DNA from: Herbiconiux sp.
Lineage (GTDB): Bacteria; Actinomycetota; Actinomycetes; Actinomycetales; Microbacteriaceae
Reading direction: 5' to 3'
Length of the DNA stretch: 64,000 nt
Assembly: GCF_023264855.1 (NCBI RefSeq)
Contig: NZ_JAHFUW010000016.1
Coordinates: 1 to 64,000, forward strand
Part shown: positions 11,697 to 23,574 of the stretch, piece after piece
How positions within the stretch are numbered: position 1 is the first letter of the stretch
Layout of the letters: each line of letters begins with the position of its first letter
Notes under the pieces: generated by a model
Told to the model about the DNA's origin: nothing
The model's database searches: none
Seen by the model: only the letters and a program-made list of their open reading frames with translations
Program-made: the position numbers and the translations under genes

Positions 11697-12563
11697 TCAA
11701 TAGCTCGCGCGGCCGGGCTCTCCCGTGCTCGGCTGCGTTCCGGGTTGGCCCGGGGCCGGGATGTAGCGGTCGGCCAGCGCTTCGGATGCGCGGGCGAGCA
11801 GGGCGACATCCGCACCCACCAGGATGAACGCGGCGCCGGCGGCCAGGTAGCGGCGCGCGAGCGGCTCGGCGAAGGCGTTCACGCCGGCCGGCACTCCCGC
11901 GGCCACGGCCACGGCGATGCAGTGCTCGACCGCGGCGATCACCTCGGGGTGGTCCTGCAGGCCGAGGTGGCCCATCGAGGCCGCGAGGTCGGAGGGGCCG
12001 AGGAAGACGCCGGCCAGGCCGTCGACCGCCACGATCGACTCGATGTTCTCCACGGCCTCGGCCGACTCGATCTGCACGATCACCGAGATGCGCTCGGCTG
12101 CCGTGGCGAGGTACTCGGGGGTGCGGTTCCAGCGTGAGGCCCGCGCGAGCGCCGATCCGACGCCCCGGATGCCCCGGGGCGGGTAGTGCACGCTGCGCAC
12201 GGCGAGCTCGGCCAGCTCGGCCGTGTCGACCATGGGCACGAGCAGCGTCTGCGTTCCGAGATCGAGGTACTGCTTGATGATGACCGGGTCGAGCACCGGA
12301 GGCCGCACCACCGGCAGGATCGGGTAGCCGTGCACCGCCTGCAGCTGCGCGAGCAGCGACTCGAGGCCGTTGGGGGAGTGCTCGGCGTCGATCAGCAGCC
12401 AGTCCAGGCCCGAGCCCGCACAGAGCTCCGCGATCAGCGGGCTGCCGCTGCACACCCACATGCCGGCGAGTGGCCGGTCGTGGGCGGCGAGCGCGGCGGC
12501 GAAGCCGGCGTCCGGCTCGATGGGGGCGGGGACGGATGCACCGGATGCACCGGATGCACTCAC
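11697..12563 (-). CDS. hpaI: HpcH/HpaI aldolase: 4-hydroxy-2-oxoheptanedioate aldolase
   Basis: This 288-residue TIM-barrel aldolase cleaves 4-hydroxy-2-oxoheptane-1,7-dioate into pyruvate and succinic semialdehyde, the last carbon-carbon step of homoprotocatechuate meta-cleavage. Catalytic and metal residues of E. coli HpaI (His45, Arg70, Glu149, Asp175) fall at His62, Arg87, Glu166 and Asp192 with a constant offset of 17. The motifs are DAEHSPN, VVRPP, IQIESA and GPSDLAASMG. The start is GTG 12563, whose GTGA overlaps the hydratase stop. The first 17 residues include an ASGASGAS repeat from a 9-bp tandem repeat. It is the second gene of the leftward hpaHI operon. Confidence 0.92.
   Translation of the reverse strand: MSASGASGASVPAPIEPDAGFAAALAAHDRPLAGMWVCSGSPLIAELCAGSGLDWLLIDAEHSPNGLESLLAQLQAVHGYPILPVVRPPVLDPVIIKQYLDLGTQTLLVPMVDTAELAELAVRSVHYPPRGIRGVGSALARASRWNRTPEYLATAAERISVIVQIESAEAVENIESIVAVDGLAGVFLGPSDLAASMGHLGLQDHPEVIAAVEHCIAVAVAAGVPAGVNAFAEPLARRYLAAGAAFILVGADVALLARASEALADRYIPAPGQPGTQPSTGEPGRASY
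12533..12559. repeat. Three perfect 9-bp tandem repeats at the HpaI N terminus
   Basis: The unit CGGATGCAC occurs three times in a row (12533, 12542, 12551). It encodes the ASG repeats of the HpaI leader and contains the GGATGC hexamer common in this window. In-frame copy changes would only alter N-terminal length. Confidence 0.8.
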
Positions 12564-13345
12564 TGGAACGTGCACGTCACGACTCCCAACGGTCCGTAGT
12601 CGGCGAACACCGAGTCGCCCGCGAACACCCACATCGGCCGGGTGAACGACCCGGCGAGGATGAGTTCGCCCGCCTTCAACGTGTCGCCGTGCGGCGCGAT
12701 CTTGTTCGCCAGCCAGGCGACGCCGTTGGCGGGGTTGTTGAGCACGCCGCCCGCGAGACCGGTCTCCTCGATGCCCTCGTTGCGGTAGAGCATCGCGCCC
12801 ACCCACCGCAGGTCGAGCTCGTCGGGCCGCACGGGGCGCCCGCCGATCACCATCACGCCCATCGCCGCGTTGTCGCTGATGGTGTCGACGATGGTGCGCC
12901 CCTCCATCTCGATGCGCGAGTCGAGGATCTCCAGGGCCGGCACCACGTATTCGGTGGCCGCGAGCACGTCGAAGAGCGTGCATCCGGGGCCCGACAGGTC
13001 GGACTTGAGCCGGAAGGCGAGCTCCACCTCGACCCGCGGATGCGTGTAGACGCCCCAGTCGAGCACGGCGCCGCTCTCGAGCACCATGTCGTCGAAGATG
13101 ATGCCGAAGTCGGGCTCGGTGATGCCGGTCGCCGCCTGCATCGCCTTCGAGGTGAGGCCGATCTTGTGGCCGACGAGCGTGCGGCCGGCGGCTTCGTTGC
13201 GGGATCGCCAGAGCGACTGCACCCGGTACGAATCCTCGATGGTCATCTCCGGATGGCGTGCGGTGATCAGGGGAACCGGCGTGCGGCTGTGGGCCGCCTC
13301 CACCAATTCGTCCGCGATCGCGGTGATCGTCTCCTCGTCGAGCAT
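12560..13345 (-). CDS. hpaH: 2-oxohept-4-ene-1,7-dioate hydratase
   Basis: The 261-residue protein of the HpaH/MhpD hydratase family adds water to 2-oxohept-4-enedioate to give the HpaI substrate. The divalent-metal glutamates known for E. coli HpcG (Glu106, Glu108, Glu139) fall at exactly the same numbers here, in THPRVEVELAF and VPALEI. The other landmarks are VGHKIGLTSKAMQ and GGVLNNPANGVAWLANK. The start ATG 13345 follows GAGGA; 42 upstream in-frame codons have no family similarity. It is divergent from the fused HpaG-like gene and shares its control region. Confidence 0.92.
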   Translation of the reverse strand: MLDEETITAIADELVEAAHSRTPVPLITARHPEMTIEDSYRVQSLWRSRNEAAGRTLVGHKIGLTSKAMQAATGITEPDFGIIFDDMVLESGAVLDWGVYTHPRVEVELAFRLKSDLSGPGCTLFDVLAATEYVVPALEILDSRIEMEGRTIVDTISDNAAMGVMVIGGRPVRPDELDLRWVGAMLYRNEGIEETGLAGGVLNNPANGVAWLANKIAPHGDTLKAGELILAGSFTRPMWVFAGDSVFADYGPLGVVTCTFQ

Positions 13346-13409: not shown

Positions 13410-13437
13410 TTGCATCGTCGATCATATCGTATATCAT
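13410..13437 (+). promoter_or_regulatory. hpaG leaderless promoter with overlapping dyad operator
   Basis: TTGCAT (13410-13415), a 16-bp spacer and TATCAT (13432-13437) end 6 nt before ATG 13444, where no ribosome site exists. The degenerate dyad ATCATATCGTATATCAT (13421-13437; 12 of 17 positions symmetric) covers the -10 box. It lies midway between the divergent hpaH and hpaG genes, so the downstream GntR regulator probably represses here. Confidence 0.55.
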
Positions 13438-13443
13438 TTGTGC

Positions 13444-14979
13444 ATGACCTACGAAGAAGTCCGGTCCCCATTCGACCCGGCCGGCGCCGACCGCCCCGGC
13501 AAGGTGATCGCCCTGCACCTGAACTACCCCAGCCGCATCGCGCAGCGCGGCCGCACGCCCGCCCAGCCCTCCTACTTCGTCAAGCCCAGCACCTCGGTGT
13601 CCGCCAGCGGCACGCCGATCGAGCGCCCGGCCGGCACCGAGCTGCTGGCCTTCGAGGGCGAGATCGCCCTGGTGATCGGCCAGACCGCCCGCGGCGTCGC
13701 CCAGGACGGCGCCTGGGCCTACGTGCGATCCGTCACCGCGGCGAACGACTTCGGCGTCTACGACCTGCGCTACGCCGACAAGGGCTCGAACCTGCGCTCG
13801 AAGGGCGGCGACGGCTTCACCCCGCTCGGCCCGGCCCTGATCGACGCCCGCACGGTCGATCCGGCCGCCCTGCGCATCCGCACCTGGGTCGACGGCGAGC
13901 TCGTGCAAGACGACACCACCGGCACGCTCGTGTTCCCGTTCGAGCAGCTCGTCGCCGACCTCTCGCAGCTGATCACGCTCGAGCCGGGCGACGTCATCCT
14001 CACCGGAACCCCCGCCGGGTCGAGCGTGGTGCTGCCGGGGCAGACCGTCGAGGTGGAGGTCGACGCTCCGGATGCTGCGGGCACGCCGTCGACCGGCCGT
14101 CTCGTCACGCACGTGGTCGAGGGCGCGTCACGCCCGGGAGCCTTCGGCGCCGGTCCGAAGATCGACGACCTGCAGCGCGCCGAGGCCTGGGGCAGCCCCG
14201 AGGCCGCGGGCCTCGAACCCGCCTGGCAGCTCACCGAGGAGCGTCGCACGAAGCTCGCTTCGGTCGCCACCGCCACCCTCAGCTCGCAGCTGCGCAAGCT
14301 CGGCTTCGACGACGTGAGCATCGACGGCGTGCGGCCCACGCATCCGGGCGAGAAGATGATCGGCCGTGCCCGCACGCTGCGCTTCATCCCCGCCCGCTCC
14401 GACCTGTTCGCCTCCCACGGCGGCGGCTACAACGCCCAGAAGCGCGCCTTCGACGGGCTGAATCCCGGCGACGTCCTCGTGATCGAGGCCCGCGGCGAAT
14501 CCGGAACCGGAACCGTCGGCGACATCCTCGCCCTTCGCGCCCAGGTGCGGGGCGCGGCCGGGATCGTGACCGACGGCGGCATCCGCGACATCGCCGCGGT
14601 CTCGGCGCTCGGCATCCCGGCCTACTCGCAGGGCGGGCACCCCGCCGTACTCGGGCGCCGGCACGTGCCGTGGGACGTCGACGTGACGATCGCCTGCGGC
14701 GGCGCCGCGGTGCAGCCCGGCGACGTGATCGTGGGCGACGACGACGGGGTGCTCGTCATTCCGCCGCACCTGGTCGACGAGGTGGTTGACGCCGCGATCG
14801 TGCAGGAGCGCGAGGAGGAGTTCATCGCCGCCCGGGTCGCCGAGGGCGAGTCGGTCGACGGGCTCTACCCAATGAACGCGGCCTGGAAGGCGCGGTTCGC
14901 CGAGCAGGCCGCGAACGAGCAGCCCACGAACGAGCAGGCCACGAACGACCAGACGGAGGCCACCCGCGATGGCGAATGA
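13444..14979 (+). CDS. Fused fumarylacetoacetate hydrolase-family and RraA-like protein, HpaG position
   Basis: The 511-residue protein has two unlike domains. Residues about 18-225 form an FAH-family domain with metal ligands Glu71 and Glu73 (FEGEIALVIG), Asp102 and the SKGGDGFTPLGPAL segment. This is the fold of HpaG, which decarboxylates the HpaE product. Residues about 260-470 are an RraA/HMG-aldolase-like domain with VTDGGIRD (Arg381, Asp382) and IPAYSQGGHP, a family that includes metal-dependent aldolases and oxaloacetate decarboxylases. In E. coli HpaG the second half is another FAH domain, so the RraA domain here looks like a replacement. The C-terminal tail is a 15-bp repeat product. 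It is the first gene of the rightward hpa operon. Confidence 0.88.
   Translation: MTYEEVRSPFDPAGADRPGKVIALHLNYPSRIAQRGRTPAQPSYFVKPSTSVSASGTPIERPAGTELLAFEGEIALVIGQTARGVAQDGAWAYVRSVTAANDFGVYDLRYADKGSNLRSKGGDGFTPLGPALIDARTVDPAALRIRTWVDGELVQDDTTGTLVFPFEQLVADLSQLITLEPGDVILTGTPAGSSVVLPGQTVEVEVDAPDAAGTPSTGRLVTHVVEGASRPGAFGAGPKIDDLQRAEAWGSPEAAGLEPAWQLTEERRTKLASVATATLSSQLRKLGFDDVSIDGVRPTHPGEKMIGRARTLRFIPARSDLFASHGGGYNAQKRAFDGLNPGDVLVIEARGESGTGTVGDILALRAQVRGAAGIVTDGGIRDIAAVSALGIPAYSQGGHPAVLGRRHVPWDVDVTIACGGAAVQPGDVIVGDDDGVLVIPPHLVDEVVDAAIVQEREEEFIAARVAEGESVDGLYPMNAAWKARFAEQAANEQPTNEQATNDQTEATRDGE
14911..14955. repeat. Three 15-bp degenerate tandem repeats at the end of the HpaG-like gene
   Basis: Units start at 14911, 14926 and 14941 and share the pattern CGAACGASCAG. 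They encode NEQPT, NEQAT and NDQTE, a low-complexity tail. The repeats end 13 bp before the GntR start. Confidence 0.7.
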
Positions 14980-15694
14980 GATCCCCGAGACCGAGACCGT
15001 GACGCAGGCCCAGTCGGCGCAGAGCAAGTCCGAGCGCGCCTACTCCTACATCAAGGAGCGCATCGAGAACGGCAGCTACACACCCGGCTACCGCCTCGTG
15101 CTCGGCCAGATCGCGAAGCAGCTGGAGATCAGCGTGGTGCCCGTGCGCGAAGCCATCCGCCGCCTCGAGGCCGAGGGTGCCGTCACGTTCGAGCGCAACA
15201 TCGGCGCGCAGGTCGCGATGGTCGACGAGCGCGAGTACTTCTACACGATGGAGACGCTGAGCCTCGTGGAGGGGATGGCGACCTCGCTGTCGGCCCCCTT
15301 CGTGACGCCGCTCGACCTCGTCGAAGCGCGCGACATCAATGCGGCGATGCGCGACTGCCTCGACCACTTCGATCCGCACCGCTTCACCGAGCTGAACCGC
15401 GAGTTCCACGCCGTGATCTTCGAGCACTGCCCGAACCCGCACATCCTCGACCTCGTGCACCGCGGCTGGAAGCGCCTCGCCGTGCTGCGCGACTCGGTCT
15501 TCGGCTTCGTGCCCGGCCGCGCCCGCGAGTCGGTGGAGGAACACGAACGCCTGCTGCAGCTGATCGAGAGCGGTGCACCCGCCCTCGACATCGAGCTCGC
15601 CGCTCGCGCCCACCGCACCGGAACGCTCGACGCCCTCCTCCATCACCAGGCCAATCAGGCTCACCACTCCCATCCCGTGAATCAAGGACGATGA
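14969..15694 (+). CDS. GntR-family regulator, FCD type, probable hpa repressor
   Basis: The 241-residue protein has a winged helix (AYSYIKERIENGSYTPGYRL, then QIAKQLEISVVPVREAIRRL) and an all-helical C-terminal FCD domain with conserved histidines in LNREFHAVIFEHCPN and SVEEHERLL that normally bind a metal near the effector. The start ATG 14969 overlaps the fusion gene by 11 bp and its stop overlaps hpaE by 4 bp, so it is embedded in the operon it probably controls. The dyad at 13421-13437 is its best candidate operator. The effector is likely homoprotocatechuate or a ring-cleavage product; this is inference. Confidence 0.87.
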   Translation: MANEIPETETVTQAQSAQSKSERAYSYIKERIENGSYTPGYRLVLGQIAKQLEISVVPVREAIRRLEAEGAVTFERNIGAQVAMVDEREYFYTMETLSLVEGMATSLSAPFVTPLDLVEARDINAAMRDCLDHFDPHRFTELNREFHAVIFEHCPNPHILDLVHRGWKRLAVLRDSVFGFVPGRARESVEEHERLLQLIESGAPALDIELAARAHRTGTLDALLHHQANQAHHSHPVNQGR

Positions 15695-17253
15695 CCATGA
15701 CCACCCAGGAAACCCCCACCACCCAGGCGACTCAGCCCGCCACCCCCATCCCGCACATCCCCGAGGGTCTGCCGGAGCGCATCCAGCACTACATCGGCGG
15801 AGCCTTCGTCGACAGCGTCGGCGGCGAGACCTTCGACGTGCTCGACCCGGTGTCGAACGAGACCTACGTGCAGGCCGCGGCCGGCCAGAAAGCCGACATC
15901 GACCTCGCCGTCGCCGCCGCCCGCAAGGCCTTCGACGAGGGCCCCTGGCCCCGGATGCTGCCGCGGGCCCGCTCGCGCATCCTGAACAAGATCGCCGACA
16001 TCGTGGAGTCGCGAGACGCCCGCCTCGCCGAGCTGGAGTCGTTCGACTCGGGGCTGCCGATCACGCAGGCGCTCGGCCAGGCGCAGCGCGCGGCCGAGAA
16101 TTTCCGCTTCTTCGCCGACCTGATCGTGGCGCAGGCCGACGACACCTACAAGGTGCCCGGCCGTCAGCTCAACTACGTCAACCGCAAGCCGAAGGGCGTC
16201 GCGGGCCTGATCACGCCCTGGAACACCCCGTTCATGCTCGAGAGCTGGAAGCTCGCCCCGGCCCTGGCGTCCGGATGCACCGTGGTGCTGAAGCCGGCCG
16301 AGTTCACGCCGCTCTCGGCGAGCCTGTGGGCCGACATCTTCCGCGAGGCGGGCGTGCCCGACGGCGTGTTCAACCTCGTGAACGGTCTCGGTGAGGAGGC
16401 CGGCGACGCACTGGTGAAGCACACCGACGTGCAGCTGATCTCGTTCACCGGCGAGAGCTCGACCGGGCAGCTGATCTTCGCGAACTGCGCGCCCACCCTC
16501 AAGGGCATGTCGATGGAGCTCGGCGGCAAGTCGCCGGCCGTGATCTTCGCCGACGCCGATCTGGATGCCGCTCTCGACTCGACCCTGTTCGGCGTGTTCT
16601 CGCTGAACGGCGAGCGCTGCACGGCCGGCTCGCGCATCCTGGTCGAGCGCCCCGTCTACGAGCAGTTCATCGAGCGCTACGCCGCCCGCGCCAAGAACAT
16701 CGTGGTGGGCGACCCGCACGATCCGAAGACCGAGGTGGGCGCCCTCGTGCACCCCGAGCACTTCGCCAAGGTGATGAGCTACGTCGAGATCGGCAAGAGC
16801 GAGGGCCGCCTGCTCGCCGGTGGCGGACGCCCGGCGCACCTGCCGACCGGCAACTACGTCGAGCCGACGGTGTTCGCCGACGTGGCTCCGGATGCGCGCA
16901 TCTTCCAGGAGGAGATCTTCGGCCCGGTCGTGGCGATCACGCCCTTCGACACCGAGGAGGAGGCGCTGGAGCTGGCCAACGGTGTGAAGTACGGCCTCGC
17001 CGCCTACATCTGGACCTCGAACCTCGAGCGCGCGCACACCTTCGCGCAGGCCGTGGACTCGGGCATGGTGTGGCTCAACTCGCACAACGTGCGCGACCTG
17101 CGCACCCCCTTCGGCGGCGTCAAGGCGAGCGGCCTCGGCCACGAGGGCGGCTACCGCTCGCTCGACTTCTACAGCGACCAGCAGGCCGTGCACATCACCC
17201 TCGGCCCCGTGCACACCGCCCGCTTCGGCGCCAACGCCCCCGCCGCCCACTGA
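15691..17253 (+). CDS. hpaE: 5-carboxymethyl-2-hydroxymuconate semialdehyde dehydrogenase
   Basis: A 520-residue NAD-dependent aldehyde dehydrogenase. It has VAGLITPWNTPF, the general base Glu277 in MELGGKSP and the nucleophile Cys310 in NGERCTAGS. The C-terminal HNVRDLRTPFGGVKASGLG is characteristic of HpaE and HpcC enzymes. It oxidises the ring-fission semialdehyde made by HpaD to the dicarboxylate. ATG 15691 overlaps the regulator stop (ATGA); ATG 15697 is an alternative. The first 25 residues are Thr/Pro/Gln-rich and not conserved. The dioxygenase gene follows 29 bp downstream. Confidence 0.92.
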   Translation: MTMTTQETPTTQATQPATPIPHIPEGLPERIQHYIGGAFVDSVGGETFDVLDPVSNETYVQAAAGQKADIDLAVAAARKAFDEGPWPRMLPRARSRILNKIADIVESRDARLAELESFDSGLPITQALGQAQRAAENFRFFADLIVAQADDTYKVPGRQLNYVNRKPKGVAGLITPWNTPFMLESWKLAPALASGCTVVLKPAEFTPLSASLWADIFREAGVPDGVFNLVNGLGEEAGDALVKHTDVQLISFTGESSTGQLIFANCAPTLKGMSMELGGKSPAVIFADADLDAALDSTLFGVFSLNGERCTAGSRILVERPVYEQFIERYAARAKNIVVGDPHDPKTEVGALVHPEHFAKVMSYVEIGKSEGRLLAGGGRPAHLPTGNYVEPTVFADVAPDARIFQEEIFGPVVAITPFDTEEEALELANGVKYGLAAYIWTSNLERAHTFAQAVDSGMVWLNSHNVRDLRTPFGGVKASGLGHEGGYRSLDFYSDQQAVHITLGPVHTARFGANAPAAH

Positions 17254-17282: not shown

Positions 17283-18374
17283 ATGACGAATGACGACATC
17301 CTGACCGGACCCATCCCCACCCCCTCCGCGACGCCGCCGGACATCCTGCGCTGCGCGTACATGGAGATCGTGGTGACCGACCTCGCCAAGTCGCGCGAGT
17401 TCTACGTCGACATTCTCGGCCTCGTGGTGACCGAAGAAGACGAGAACGCGATCTACCTGCGCAGCTTCGAGGAGTTCATCCATCACAACCTCGTGCTGCG
17501 CCAGGGGCCGATCGCCGCGGTCGCCGCCTTCTCCTACCGGGTGCGCACGCCCGAAGACGTCGACCTCGCCGAGGCCTACTACAAGGAACTCGGCTGCCGC
17601 ACCGAGCGCCGCAGCGACGGTTTCGTGAACGGCATCGGCGACTCCGTGCGGGTCACCGATCCGCTGGGCTTCCCGTACGAGTTCTTCTACTCGGTCGAGC
17701 ACGTCGAACGCCTGGCCTGGCGCTACGACCTCTATGGCCCCGGCGCCCTCGTGCGCCTCGACCACTTCAACCAGGTGACCCCGGACGTGCCGCGCGGCCG
17801 CAAGTACCTCGAAGACCTCGGCTTCCGGGTGACCGAAGACATCCAGGACGAAGACGGCGTCACCTACGCCGCGTGGCTGCGCCGCAAGGACACCGTGCAC
17901 GACACCGCCCTCACCGGCGGCGACGGCCCGCGGATGCACCACATCGCGTTCTCGACGCACGAGAAGCACAACATCCTCTACATCTGCGACAAGCTCGGCG
18001 CGTTGCGCAAGAGCGACCTGATCGAGCGCGGCCCCGGCCGGCACGGCGTCTCGAACGCGTTCTACCTCTACATCACCGACCCCGACGGTCACCGCGTGGA
18101 GATCTACACGCAGGACTACTACACCGGAGACCCCGACAACCCCGTCGTCACCTGGGACGTGCACGACAACCAGCGCCGCGACTGGTGGGGCAACCCGGTG
18201 GTGCCGAGCTGGTACACCGAGGCCTCCTTGGTGCTCGACCTCGACGGCAACCCGCAGCCCGTGATCAAGCGCACCGATGCCAGCGAGATGGCGGTCACCG
18301 TCGGTGCCGACGGCTTCTCGTACACCCGCAAGGACGACACGGTCGAGGGCTTCAAGCTCGGGAACACGCTGTGA
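17283..18374 (+). CDS. hpaD: 3,4-dihydroxyphenylacetate 2,3-dioxygenase (extradiol, VOC type)
   Basis: The 363-residue protein opens the homoprotocatechuate ring between C2 and C3 using a mononuclear metal and O2. Against the Brevibacterium fuscum enzyme every active-site residue fits a constant offset of six: metal ligands His161, His220 and Glu273, and second-sphere Asn163, Trp198, His206, Arg249, His254, Tyr263 and Arg299. The sequence shows LVRLDHFNQV, MHHIAFST and HRVEIYTQDYY. Whether it uses Fe(II), as in Brevibacterium, or Mn(II), as in Arthrobacter MndD, cannot be told. The GTGA at its end couples it to the next gene. Confidence 0.95.
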   Translation: MTNDDILTGPIPTPSATPPDILRCAYMEIVVTDLAKSREFYVDILGLVVTEEDENAIYLRSFEEFIHHNLVLRQGPIAAVAAFSYRVRTPEDVDLAEAYYKELGCRTERRSDGFVNGIGDSVRVTDPLGFPYEFFYSVEHVERLAWRYDLYGPGALVRLDHFNQVTPDVPRGRKYLEDLGFRVTEDIQDEDGVTYAAWLRRKDTVHDTALTGGDGPRMHHIAFSTHEKHNILYICDKLGALRKSDLIERGPGRHGVSNAFYLYITDPDGHRVEIYTQDYYTGDPDNPVVTWDVHDNQRRDWWGNPVVPSWYTEASLVLDLDGNPQPVIKRTDASEMAVTVGADGFSYTRKDDTVEGFKLGNTL

Positions 18375-19861
18375 GCGCCGCCGGCACGGGCCTCGCTCCG
18401 GCCGAGCAGGCGCTGCTCGACGGCGTTCCCACGAGGCTCTTCATCGGCGGCGAGTGGATGGATGCGGCATCCGGAAAGACCCTCGACGTCTACGACCCCG
18501 CGACCGGCGAGGTCATCGCGAGCATCGCGGATGCCGGCGTCGACGACGGTGCCCGGGCCCTGGATGCGGCCGTCGCCGCGCAGGCCGACTGGGCCGCGAC
18601 CCCGCCCCGCGTACGCGGCGAGATCCTGCGCCGCACCTTCGACCTGCTGCAGGAGCGCAAAGAAGAAGCCGCGCTGCTGATGACCATCGAGATGGGCAAG
18701 CCGCTCGCCGAGGCGCGGGGAGAAGTCGCCTACGGCGGCGAGTTCCTGCGCTGGTTCAGCGAGGAGGCCGTGCGCATCTCGGGCCGCTACGGCTCGAACC
18801 CCGAGGGCACCGGCCGGATGATCGTCACCCAGCGCCCGGTCGGCCCGACCTTCCTCATCACCCCGTGGAACTTCCCGCTCGCGATGGCCACCCGCAAGCT
18901 CGCGCCCGCCATCGCGGCCGGCTGCACGAGCGTGATCAAGCCCGCCGCGCTCACCCCGCTGACGACGCTCTTCCTGGTGAAGCTGCTCGAAGAGGCCGGC
19001 CTACCCAAGGGTGTGGTCAACGTCGTCACCACGACCACGACCGGCCCGGTCTCCGGCGCGATCATCGCCGACCCGCGGCTGCGCAAGCTGTCGTTCACGG
19101 GTTCGACCCCGGTGGGCGTGCAGCTGCTCAAGCAGGCGGCCGACAACGTGCTGAAGACCTCGATGGAGCTCGGCGGCAACGCCCCGTTCGTGGTGTTCGA
19201 CGACGCCGACCTCGACAAGGCCGTGGAGGGCGCGCTGCTGGCGAAGTTCCGCAACATCGGCCAGGCCTGCACCGCGGCGAACCGCTTCATCGTGCACGAG
19301 AAGGTGGCCGACGAGTTCGGCCGTCGCCTGGCCGAGCGGGTCAAGGCGTTCCGGATCGGGCGCGGCACCGAAGAGGGCGTGACGATCGGGCCGCTGATCG
19401 ACGACAAGGCCGTGGCCAAGGTCGGCTCGCTCGTCGACGACGCCGTCGGGCGCGGGGCCACCCTGCTGACCGGCGGATCCGCCGTCGAGGGTCGCGGCTC
19501 GTTCTACGAGCCGACGGTGCTCGCCGACGTGCAGCAGGGCAGCGACATCCTGAGCGAGGAGATCTTCGGGCCGGTGGTGTCGATCATCCGCTTCACCGAC
19601 GAGGCCGACGCCGTGGCCAAGGCCAACGCCACCGAGTACGGCCTGGTGGGGTACGTGTTCACGAAGGATCTGGCCCGCGGCCAGCGCCTGATCGACTCGA
19701 TCGACACCGGCATGATGGGCCTCAACACGGGCGTGGTGTCGAACGCGGCGGCTCCCTTCGGCGGCGTGAAACAGTCGGGGCTAGGCCGCGAGGGCGGCTT
19801 CGAGGGCATCCACGAGTACCTCGAGACGAAGTACGTGCTGACACCCGATCCGTTCGCGTGA
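18371..19861 (+). CDS. gabD: Succinate-semialdehyde dehydrogenase [NAD(P)+]
   Basis: A 496-residue aldehyde dehydrogenase of the GabD type. It has [19 protein letters not shown], base Glu266 in [16 protein letters not shown], nucleophile Cys300 in [12 protein letters not shown] and the C-terminal [14 protein letters not shown]. It would oxidise the succinic semialdehyde released by HpaI to succinate and so link the pathway to the TCA cycle. The start GTG 18371 overlaps the hpaD stop by 4 bp. A strong hairpin begins 4 bp after its stop, so this is the last gene of the rightward operon. Other semialdehydes are possible substrates. Confidence 0.9.
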
Positions 19862-19982: not shown

Positions 19983-20957
19983 GTGAACGAGATGGCTTCT
20001 CCCCGGCCGACCGGCCCCGTGCGTGCCACGGTGTCGAACGGATTCCGCGACTTCCGAGACGCCGTGGCGGGCTCGTTCGTGCCCTTGGAGGTCGGCAGCC
20101 TCGGCGCCGGCCCGTTCTGGGGCCGCCTGCGCACGGTCGACGTCGACGCCGTGCACGTCACCGAGGTGACGGCGACCCGGCACACCGTCGAGCGCACCCC
20201 GCTGCTGATCGAGGCGAACGATCCCCGGTACTACAAGGCGAGCCTGCAGGTCGCGGGCACCGGCCTCCTCATCCAGGACGGCCGGGAGGCGCTGCTGCAG
20301 CCCGGCGACCTGGCCATCTACGACACCGACCGGCCGTACTCGCTCGTCTTCGAAGACGACATCCGGATGCTCGTGCTGATGTTCCCGCGCGAGAGCATCG
20401 GCCTTCCGCCGGAGATGGTGGGGCAGCTCACCGCGCACCGCTTCTCCAGCGACGACGGGCTCGGCGGCATGATCATCCCGTTCCTGAACACGGTGTCGCA
20501 GAACATCGACCGGGTGGGCGGGCTCGCCGGGCCGCGGCTGGTGCAGACCGCGCTCGACCTGATCACCACGATGTTCGCCAGCGAGCTCGACCTGGAGGCG
20601 TCGTCCGGCGACTCGCACCAGCTGCTGATGCAGCAGATCCGGGGCTACATCGACGCGAACCTCGGCTCGCCCGAGCTGGGACCGGCGCAGATCGCCGCCG
20701 CGCACTTCATCTCCACCCGGCACCTGCACGGACTCTTCCGCGAGAAGGGCACGACGGTGTCGACCTGGGTCCGGGAACGTCGGCTCGACCGGTGCCGCCG
20801 CGATCTGGTCGACCCGCTGAACGCGCACCTCTCGGTGGGCGCGATCGCAGCGCGCTGGGGATTTCTGGACGCTGCGCACTTCTCGCGCGTGTTCAAGGCG
20901 GCGCACGGCGCCTCGCCGAGCGAGCTGAGGCTCGCCTCGCTGCGGCTCACGCCCTGA
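19983..20957 (+). CDS. AraC-family transcriptional regulator
   Basis: The 324-residue protein has an N-terminal effector domain of the AraC-binding-like type (AGTGLLIQDGREALLQPGDL, then YDTDRPYSLVFEDDIRMLVL). The C-terminal pair of helix-turn-helices (AAAHFISTRHLHGLFREKG and IAARWGFLDAAHFSRVFKAAHG) is the AraC signature. This effector type occurs in FeaR, the activator of the phenylethylamine genes in E. coli, which fits the aromatic setting. The start GTG 19983 follows AAGGTGG. It is convergent with the GMC oxidoreductase gene. Targets are unknown; the hpa genes and the oxidoreductase-MoaF pair are the nearest candidates. Confidence 0.86.
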   Translation: MNEMASPRPTGPVRATVSNGFRDFRDAVAGSFVPLEVGSLGAGPFWGRLRTVDVDAVHVTEVTATRHTVERTPLLIEANDPRYYKASLQVAGTGLLIQDGREALLQPGDLAIYDTDRPYSLVFEDDIRMLVLMFPRESIGLPPEMVGQLTAHRFSSDDGLGGMIIPFLNTVSQNIDRVGGLAGPRLVQTALDLITTMFASELDLEASSGDSHQLLMQQIRGYIDANLGSPELGPAQIAAAHFISTRHLHGLFREKGTTVSTWVRERRLDRCRRDLVDPLNAHLSVGAIAARWGFLDAAHFSRVFKAAHGASPSELRLASLRLTP

Positions 20958-22725: not shown

Positions 22726-23574
22726 ATGGCCGACATCTCAGACCACCTTGAGGCCGCGGGCGACCAGTGGCGCAGCTACGACGAGTTCGCCGCCGGAATC
22801 GACACCTACCGCCTGCCCTCCGCCGACCTGACCGGCCGATGGGTCGAGCTCGACCTGGGTGGGGATCGGCTTCGCCTCGAGTTCCCGGATGCGGGGCTCG
22901 CGCGCTGGTCGTCGCCCGCGTTCGGTACGGGGCGGGCATCCGACGGCCCGGCATCCGTCGACCCCTACGACGCCGTGCAGGTGCGCCCCGGAGTCGTGTT
23001 CGTCAACCTCGAGCTCCGCAGCCGCGAGCGGGAGGCGATCACGGTGATCTGGTCGACGCGCACCGGGCGTGCCCTCGTGACGCACTCGCGCATCCGCAGT
23101 TCGGAGGAGGCCGCCGCCGACGGCGAGCCGCAGGTGACGCAGACCTTCCACCCCGGTGTGCTCACGGCCACCGAGGCGGGCCCGGCCGCTGCCCCCTCAG
23201 GGCCCGCGCCGGCTCCCTCGCGCGACCTGATCGGCAAGCGCAACGTCTACCGCTACAGCCCCGAGCACCTCTATGAGCACACCTACATGTCGTCGGAGCG
23301 CTACATGTGGCAGTGCCTGCAGGGTGTGCAGCGCGGGCACGGCGACGTCGACCGCTCCACCGTCTGGAAGTTCGACGACGGCCTCTACCTCTTCTGCTTC
23401 CGCGAGTTCAAGATCGCCGTGGCGAGCGTGTGGCTGCACGACCTCGGCTACGACCTGCGCACCACCGGCGTCTTCCTCGGTCTCACGGCCTCCGACGCCG
23501 CGGCCCACTCCCGCGCGGGCGGCCACATCTACCCCCTCGGTGCCGTTACCTACCCCGACGTGCAGCCCGTCTGA
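22726..23574 (+). CDS. moaF: MoaF-family protein (first of two)
   Basis: A 282-residue protein with an N-terminal beta-rich half (WVELDLGGDRLRLEF) and a C-terminal half carrying the family segment GKRNVYRYSPEHLYEHTYMS plus YMWQCLQGVQ, with a Pro/Ala linker at about 145-165. The fold is lipocalin-like in this family. Databases label it molybdenum cofactor biosynthesis protein F, but no cofactor gene is nearby. The moaF name also comes from the monoamine regulon of Klebsiella, which fits this catabolic setting better. AAAGGGA precedes ATG 22726. A paralogue lies at 35279-36142. The biochemical role is unknown. Confidence 0.8.
   Translation: MADISDHLEAAGDQWRSYDEFAAGIDTYRLPSADLTGRWVELDLGGDRLRLEFPDAGLARWSSPAFGTGRASDGPASVDPYDAVQVRPGVVFVNLELRSREREAITVIWSTRTGRALVTHSRIRSSEEAAADGEPQVTQTFHPGVLTATEAGPAAAPSGPAPAPSRDLIGKRNVYRYSPEHLYEHTYMSSERYMWQCLQGVQRGHGDVDRSTVWKFDDGLYLFCFREFKIAVASVWLHDLGYDLRTTGVFLGLTASDAAAHSRAGGHIYPLGAVTYPDVQPV

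Follow-up and report, generated by a model that had tools for sequence, protein, structure and literature searches.

How is the middle of the homoprotocatechuate meta-cleavage pathway completed where hpaD and hpaE stand beside a gene unlike Escherichia coli hpaG? Homoprotocatechuate itself arises from tyrosine and related amines. In the established route, HpaD and HpaE yield 5-carboxymethyl-2-hydroxymuconate (CHM), HpaF converts this to 5-oxopent-3-ene-1,2,5-tricarboxylate (OPET), and HpaG decarboxylates OPET to 2-hydroxyhepta-2,4-diene-1,7-dioate (HHDD), which it isomerises to 2-oxohept-4-ene-1,7-dioate (OHED; PMC12718150). The locus that raises the question lies in a 64,000-nucleotide stretch of Herbiconiux sp. 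DNA (RefSeq assembly GCF_023264855.1, contig NZ_JAHFUW010000016.1, positions 1 to 64,000; hereafter, the window), where one gene joins a fumarylacetoacetate hydrolase (FAH) domain to an RraA-like domain. We propose, with a probability of roughly 0.7, that this fusion is the mid-pathway enzyme of actinobacterial homoprotocatechuate meta-cleavage, taking the CHM/OPET tri-acid to OHED and so doing the work of HpaG and probably that of HpaF too, since its gene is tied to hpaD, HpaF is mostly missing from its carriers, the N-terminal half of HpaG was not found over cut-off, and its metal sites are conserved. Genome context gives this pathway role good support.

Linkage of the fusion to hpaD

We searched 248 sampled genomes from the window's order, applying curated model cut-offs. 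The fusion scored over cut-off in 63 genomes and HpaD in 67, and the two occurred together in 61 (Fisher p = 3e-48, a statistic that ignores relatedness); in all 61, the listed match positions of fusion and HpaD lay on one contig, 2,482-4,788 bases apart. The two fusion genomes without HpaD look like broken ends, as in one (G171) the contig stops 655 bases beyond the fusion and the other (G233) retains only the first part of HpaE. Six genomes had HpaD without the fusion; all are of one genus and carry a stand-alone RraA. In a sample of the phylum, the fusion was over cut-off in 5/296 genomes, all of the window's order, and carriers of other families among the matches listed included Pseudonocardiaceae, Streptosporangiaceae, Corynebacterium and others. 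We also collected 48 named fusion loci (L086-L132 plus L147, counting the likely chimera L129). HpaD lay within the locus in 46 of them and HpaE in 45 (L128 having only part of it), whereas HpaH was there in 30 and HpaI in 28. The genome-wide co-occurrence that the initial annotation of the window had suggested examining was therefore observed, with hpaD in 61/63 fusion genomes, hpaE, hpaH and hpaI as neighbors, and no HpaF match in 61/63.

In the Corynebacterium loci L119, L123, and L127, the gene order is fusion-GntR-HpaE-HpaD-HpaH-HpaI-SSADH, the last being a succinate-semialdehyde dehydrogenase (SSADH). A cluster hpaGLEDHI plus gabD2 is described in the genome paper of C. aurimucosum, which assigns its HpaG as OPET decarboxylase (PMC2830990); because the gene order equals that of these three loci, we infer that this hpaG corresponds to the fusion.

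Homoprotocatechuate clusters with the fusion also occur on plasmids: one of Rhodococcus sp. NBC_00297 (L086), with a primary-amine oxidase alongside, and pTC2 of Paenarthrobacter aurescens TC1 (L087), which is typed as conjugative. In these two compact clusters, the fusion is the sole listed candidate for the mid-pathway steps, the PLSDB gene table being incomplete.

A public contig labelled Stenotrophomonas maltophilia (L129) joins an ordinary His-type FAH to a fusion-type RraA. It was set aside as a likely chimera because leuB/ilvE-like genes (by eye) precede the FAH and the switch falls in the shared FAH motif GTPAGSSV, within which an actinobacterial part has apparently been joined.

HpaF and HpaG in fusion-bearing genomes

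The window's genome comprises 4.37 Mb and is 95% complete. The initial annotation had found no HpaF isomerase gene in the window, and this held for the whole genome, where the Pfam model of CHM isomerase (CHMI/HpaF, PF02962) gave no match; the intact HpaG plus HpaF that it had named as contrary evidence was likewise not seen there, within the limit of that completeness. The built-in PF02962 controls were silent, including those of the window-genome and order-sample searches, and controls were added from genomes behind HpaG-cluster loci, which scored 175.9 and 169.9 bits, so the search does detect the gene. PF02962 was found in 0/29 named fusion genomes (from 46 named genome loci), a search in which the L150 control genome scored 175.9 bits, and in neither of two plasmids bearing the whole fusion cluster; of the 63 order genomes with the fusion, 61 had no match. 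HpaF is therefore missing from nearly all fusion-bearing genomes tested. A tblastn search with E. coli HpaF over a set of collected loci returned that protein itself, L150 and, weakly, L041.

The model of the N-terminal half of HpaG (HpaG-N, TIGR02305) was over cut-off in 0/248 order genomes, and 14 control genomes likewise gave none over cut-off. For the C-terminal half (HpaG-C, TIGR02303), the search covered the window's genome, where 0/12 matches exceeded cut-off.

The fusion protein and the descent of its FAH domain

Translation of the fusion gene showed 511 open codons with no internal stop, and Pfam found only PF01557 FAA_hydrolase (162.9 bits, profile positions 1-213 of 214) followed by PF03737 RraA-like (118.5 bits, whole profile), confirming the single FAH-then-RraA protein of the initial annotation; the PF02962 tautomerase domain is absent from it. 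Glu71, Glu73, Asp102, Arg381, and Asp382 sit where that annotation had put them and are invariant in an alignment of 48 sequences that includes the window's own. Both domains are complete and their metal-site residues are conserved. Considering that the fusion was over cut-off in 63/248 order genomes, an assembly artefact or chance fusion was ruled out. A structure model of the fusion had a predicted template modelling (pTM) score of 0.59, and the relative arrangement of the two domains was therefore not used as evidence.

The architecture is already catalogued as NF009399 (PRK12764) and is not new to databases; the window's protein covers positions 19-496 of the 501 in that model. The family name, 'fumarylacetoacetate hydrolase family protein', mentions neither the RraA half nor a pathway or specific function, and the fusion gene on pTC2 is annotated 'putative Dimethylmenaquinone methyltransferase'. 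In the literature searched, mostly without subscription papers, no title or abstract opening described an FAH-RraA fusion, and none of the sources searched assigned it a function.

The metal ligands E71, E73, and D102 (Glu-x-Glu plus Asp) occur in 91/91 distinct FAH domains at least 53% identical to the window's, in which the dyad position reads Arg-Gln in 85 and Arg-Glu in 6; among 70 other FAH domains in the loci, the first dyad site is Arg in 37 and His in 31. In FAHD1, a His30-Glu33 dyad holds the reactive water (PMC8398924); this His and Glu are also found in E. coli HpaG-C and Thermus HpcE. E. coli HpaG-N lacks the Glu-x-Glu ligands that the fusion FAH has. Scored against the HpaG models, the fusion FAH reached 144.6 bits for TIGR02303 (cut-off 276.4) and 109.9 for TIGR02305 (cut-off 228.65).

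In a midpoint-rooted FAH tree with some long rows, 22 fusion-type rows drawn at random formed one group (100/98), adjoining 36 rows of stand-alone Arg-type FAHs (100/96) and separate from HpaG-C and HpaG-N alike. One of the 22 (L133) is cut by a contig end, so that the fusion is not shown there, and L007, an Arg row, is placed within the His-type FAHs. The fusion FAH thus appears to be a third FAH lineage, sister to the stand-alone Arg-type FAHs and derived from neither HpaG half, and this grouping ruled out an HpaG remnant. The suggestion that the second FAH half of HpaG had been replaced by the RraA domain was accordingly not supported. Since the FAH domain seems to descend from neither half, the protein in its entirety appears to stand in for HpaG as a non-orthologous replacement.

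Arg-type stand-alone FAHs adjoin HpaE-like dehydrogenases in L072, L138, L139, and L142. An extradiol dioxygenase is also encoded there in L072 and L142, and L138, L139, and L142 have HpaH/HpaI-like genes. CHMI had no match in four proteobacterial genomes with Arg-type FAHs (L138, L139, L142, and L143). Because these FAHs adjoin HpaE-like and extradiol genes, and CHMI is absent in the four carriers, the Arg-type FAH seems to belong more widely to dehydrogenase branches of meta-cleavage routes.

The RraA domain and its stand-alone relatives

The motif D360-X20-R381-D382, which we take to be the metal and substrate motif known as D-X20-R-D, is invariant in 48/48 aligned sequences, and D360, R381, and D382 align with PDB 3noj. 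The domain scored 242 bits against the subfamily model PRK08245, over its cut-off of 208, and fell below the cut-offs of aldolase models (TIGR02798, 93 of 304.5; NF006731, 101 of 179) and of RNase regulator models (NF006875, 45.7 of 136; TIGR01935, 45.3 of 123.8).

In the six genomes of one genus mentioned above (L064-L069), the stand-alone RraA lies beside a divergent HpaD and also an HpaI-like gene; HpaH is present in 5/6, and no FAH or HpaE match was found in these clusters. In the RraA tree, their RraA nests inside the fusion RraA domains with moderate support (35/93 other rows were used, including L129 and the stand-alone L170, labelled as fusion in the analysis). Given this nesting, the stand-alone form looks like a later release from the fusion rather than an ancestral split state. 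Two syringate/vanillate O-demethylase-like genes lie nearby in L064, and the clusters are possibly an undescribed route for a methoxylated aromatic. In L170, from a genome of another class, an RraA gene is followed by a dihydrodipicolinate-synthase-family-like aldolase (by eye) and then by an HpaD of the L064 type.

Proposed role and alternatives

The mid-pathway steps share a 2-oxido-dienolate, a species that can be held by a divalent metal. The CHM/OPET tri-acid, formed through HpaD and HpaE, would enter the fusion, where the RraA domain would hold OPET by its 2-oxo-acid end on the metal and remove the carboxylate via a metal-bound dienolate; the RraA site matches that of a metal-dependent pyruvate aldolase that also decarboxylates oxaloacetate. 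The FAH domain, with its metal ligands and Lys120 and without the water-activating His-Glu dyad, may carry out the keto-enol shifts on either side of decarboxylation. The OHED di-acid would then leave the fusion and be hydrated by HpaH. With OPET as substrate, the RraA domain would be a vinylogous beta-keto-acid decarboxylase, an activity that this fold is not known to have. A fuller version, in which a single polypeptide takes CHM the whole way to OHED in three steps, needing neither HpaF nor HpaG, with RraA as the OPET decarboxylase and FAH as a pure tautomerase, and in which the RraA module afterwards split off and came into use alongside the divergent HpaD for another, possibly O-demethylated, aromatic, is offered tentatively and is rather doubtful as a whole.

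CHM isomerises spontaneously, and an Acinetobacter pair of enzymes works without CHMI, but more slowly (PMC12718150). Arthrobacter Rue61a, which may or may not be a carrier of the fusion, is able to use 4-hydroxyphenylacetate, homoprotocatechuate and tyrosine for growth (PMC3534580).

Several observations count against a mid-pathway role that dispenses with HpaF and HpaG. Of the 248 order genomes, 2 (G065 and G121) gave CHMI matches, at 34-50 bits against a Pfam cut-off of 26.5; both have the fusion, and the matches sit on other contigs. The C. aurimucosum paper places hpaF at cauri_0890, outside the cluster (PMC2830990). The absence of HpaF was judged by PF02962, with no search directed at other small tautomerases, of the 4-oxalocrotonate tautomerase (4-OT) family, that the genomes may encode. 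The window's genome has 11 other FAH-domain matches, which could contribute, and three of these genes outscore the fusion against HpaG-C (177.2, 157.6, and 147.7 vs. 145.9 bits). Among the named loci, HpaE was not seen in L097, L125, and L129 and is a fragment in L128, HpaD was not seen in L126 and L129, and the fetched locus holds HpaH in only 30/48 and HpaI in only 28/48. A measured activity for any member of the fusion family was not found in the sources searched.

The labor of the two domains might also be reversed, the FAH domain being the OPET decarboxylase, as the metal-bearing HpaG C-half has been assigned, and RraA an isomerase replacing HpaG-N and/or HpaF. The higher score of the fusion FAH to HpaG-C than to HpaG-N and its Glu-x-Glu ligands, which E. 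coli HpaG-N lacks, are consistent with this, as is FAHD1, which unites tautomerase and decarboxylase activity (PMC12176266). However, the His-Glu dyad of HpaG-C is Arg-Gln in the fusion FAH, which groups with the stand-alone Arg-type FAHs rather than with HpaG-C, and an RraA-fold aldolase is known as an oxaloacetate decarboxylase (PMC5065237). We consider such a reversal possible, if on balance unlikely.

A purely regulatory RraA domain (of the RNase ES inhibitor type), or a purely structural one, leaving FAH alone catalytic, is less likely still and in our estimate improbable: D-X20-R-D is invariant, the regulator model NF006875 scored far short of its cut-off, and a close RraA stands alone beside hpaD in six genomes without an FAH in the cluster, which fits a catalytic step on ring-cleavage products. 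Least probable is that the fusion serves another reaction of the cluster, such as that of a second aldolase, with the HpaG/HpaF steps spontaneous or performed by FAH paralogues. In its favor, CHM can isomerise on its own and the tri-acid is decarboxylated even when HpaF is left out (PMC12718150), the window's genome has the further FAH genes noted above, three closer to HpaG-C than the fusion, and aldolases are among the RraA-fold enzymes (PMC5065237). Against it, the cluster already has an HpaI-like aldolase, no single enzyme gave notable decarboxylation in the Acinetobacter study (PMC12718150), and the fusion is linked to hpaD in 61/61 co-occurring genomes.

Comparison with known systems

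E. coli HpaG/HpcE (PDB 1gtt and 1i7o), which acts as both OPET decarboxylase and HHDD isomerase, consists of two FAH halves, whereas the fusion has one FAH and one RraA domain; the fusion gene likewise sits in a homoprotocatechuate cluster, but its FAH has Arg-Gln instead of His-Glu and would represent a separate lineage, and HpaF is missing in nearly all fusion genomes tested. FAHD1-type hydrolase/decarboxylases also have the His-x-x-Glu dyad that the fusion FAH lacks. In Acinetobacter, efficient decarboxylation of the tri-acid requires two partners, a tandem OPET decarboxylase (OPETD) and HHDD isomerase (HHDDI), acting as a complex (PMC12718150), while the fusion is one chain; unlike the fusion, both superpose on the HpcE halves and CHMI is present. 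The 4-hydroxy-4-methyl-2-oxoglutarate/4-carboxy-4-hydroxy-2-oxoadipate (HMG/CHA) aldolase/oxaloacetate decarboxylase of the LigK type (PDB 3noj) shares D-X20-R-D with the fusion RraA, but the fusion falls far below that family's cut-off (TIGR02798), is joined to an FAH domain, and has an HpaI-like aldolase already in its cluster. Streptomyces RraAS2 (PDB 5x15), titled as a member of the RNase ES inhibitor family, is a 270-residue chain without an FAH domain.

How the two domains of HpaG function remains ambiguous according to the Acinetobacter study (PMC12718150), and a natural FAH plus RraA substitute would be a direct means to separate decarboxylation from isomerisation. The closest relative of the window's HpaD is structurally much studied, yet the enzyme after HpaE in such bacteria is named only generically; if the fusion has a mid-pathway role, pathway calls in which actinobacteria are scored as lacking HpaF and HpaG would need correction. 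What is new is the tight linkage of fusion and hpaD across the order sample, the near-total lack of HpaF in the carriers tested, and the lack of any HpaG-N match over cut-off in that sample.

The gene cluster and its promoter

The cluster (Table 1) bears out the placing of the fusion among homoprotocatechuate genes. The fusion gene is divergent from the hpaH and hpaI-like genes (11697..13345, - strand) and heads a tight + strand series that continues with the GntR/FCD, HpaE, HpaD, and SSADH genes and is too tight for a separate same-strand gene of HpaF size. The HpaI-like and SSADH proteins score below their NCBIfam cut-offs, yet the models named are the best-scoring ones. The HpaD relative 1q0c, the homoprotocatechuate 2,3-dioxygenase of Brevibacterium fuscum, is one of 13 PDB entries with a common sequence.

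Table 1. Features of the fusion gene, its domains and its surroundings in the window.
Feature	Position	Strand	Details
HpaI-like 4-hydroxy-2-oxoheptanedioate aldolase	11697..12575	-	TIGR02311 309.2 bits, below cut-off 368.8; start uncertain, GTG at 12575 or 12563
HpaH, 2-oxo-hept-4-ene-1,7-dioate hydratase	12560..13345	-	TIGR02312 360.8 bits, cut-off 351.5; start read as ATG at 13345
Palindrome copy	13421..13440	.	consensus by eye ATCGTATACGAT; inside the 98-bp divergent promoter of the fusion gene
FAH-RraA fusion gene	13444..14979	+	511 aa; NCBIfam NF009399/PRK12764 match at residues 16-491, 825.3 bits, cut-off 444
FAH domain, residues 20-224	13501..14115	+	E71, E73, D102, K120 kept; R31-x-x-Q34 replaces His-x-x-Glu
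RraA-like domain, residues 276-438	14269..14757	+	carries D360-X20-R381-D382
GntR/FCD transcriptional regulator	14969..15694	+	Pfam; 11-base overlap with fusion gene
HpaE	15691..17253	+	651.2 bits, cut-off 638.35
HpaD, homoprotocatechuate 2,3-dioxygenase (type I extradiol)	17283..18374	+	428.2 bits, cut-off 321.4; PDB 1q0c 662 bits
SSADH-like dehydrogenase	18371..19861	+	TIGR01780 570.5 bits, below cut-off 646.35; GTG start
AraC-family regulator, best match FeaR	19983..20957	+	157.6 bits, below cut-off 199

The palindrome upstream of the fusion gene is the sole such site of the window. Its 7-mer, TCGTATA or TATACGA, occurs within -250 to +60 in 72/90 distinct fusion loci (a count that takes in L129) vs. 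0.023 expected, and the palindrome is a probable operator of the GntR/FCD regulator; the 7-mer is not present at the stand-alone RraA clusters L064-L069.

Near the cluster and the FeaR-like regulator, a MoaF-domain protein (PF10703 and PF17409) is encoded at 22726..23574. The MoaF family is known from monoamine operons, and its presence near the cluster and the FeaR-like regulator hints at an amine as the upstream substrate.
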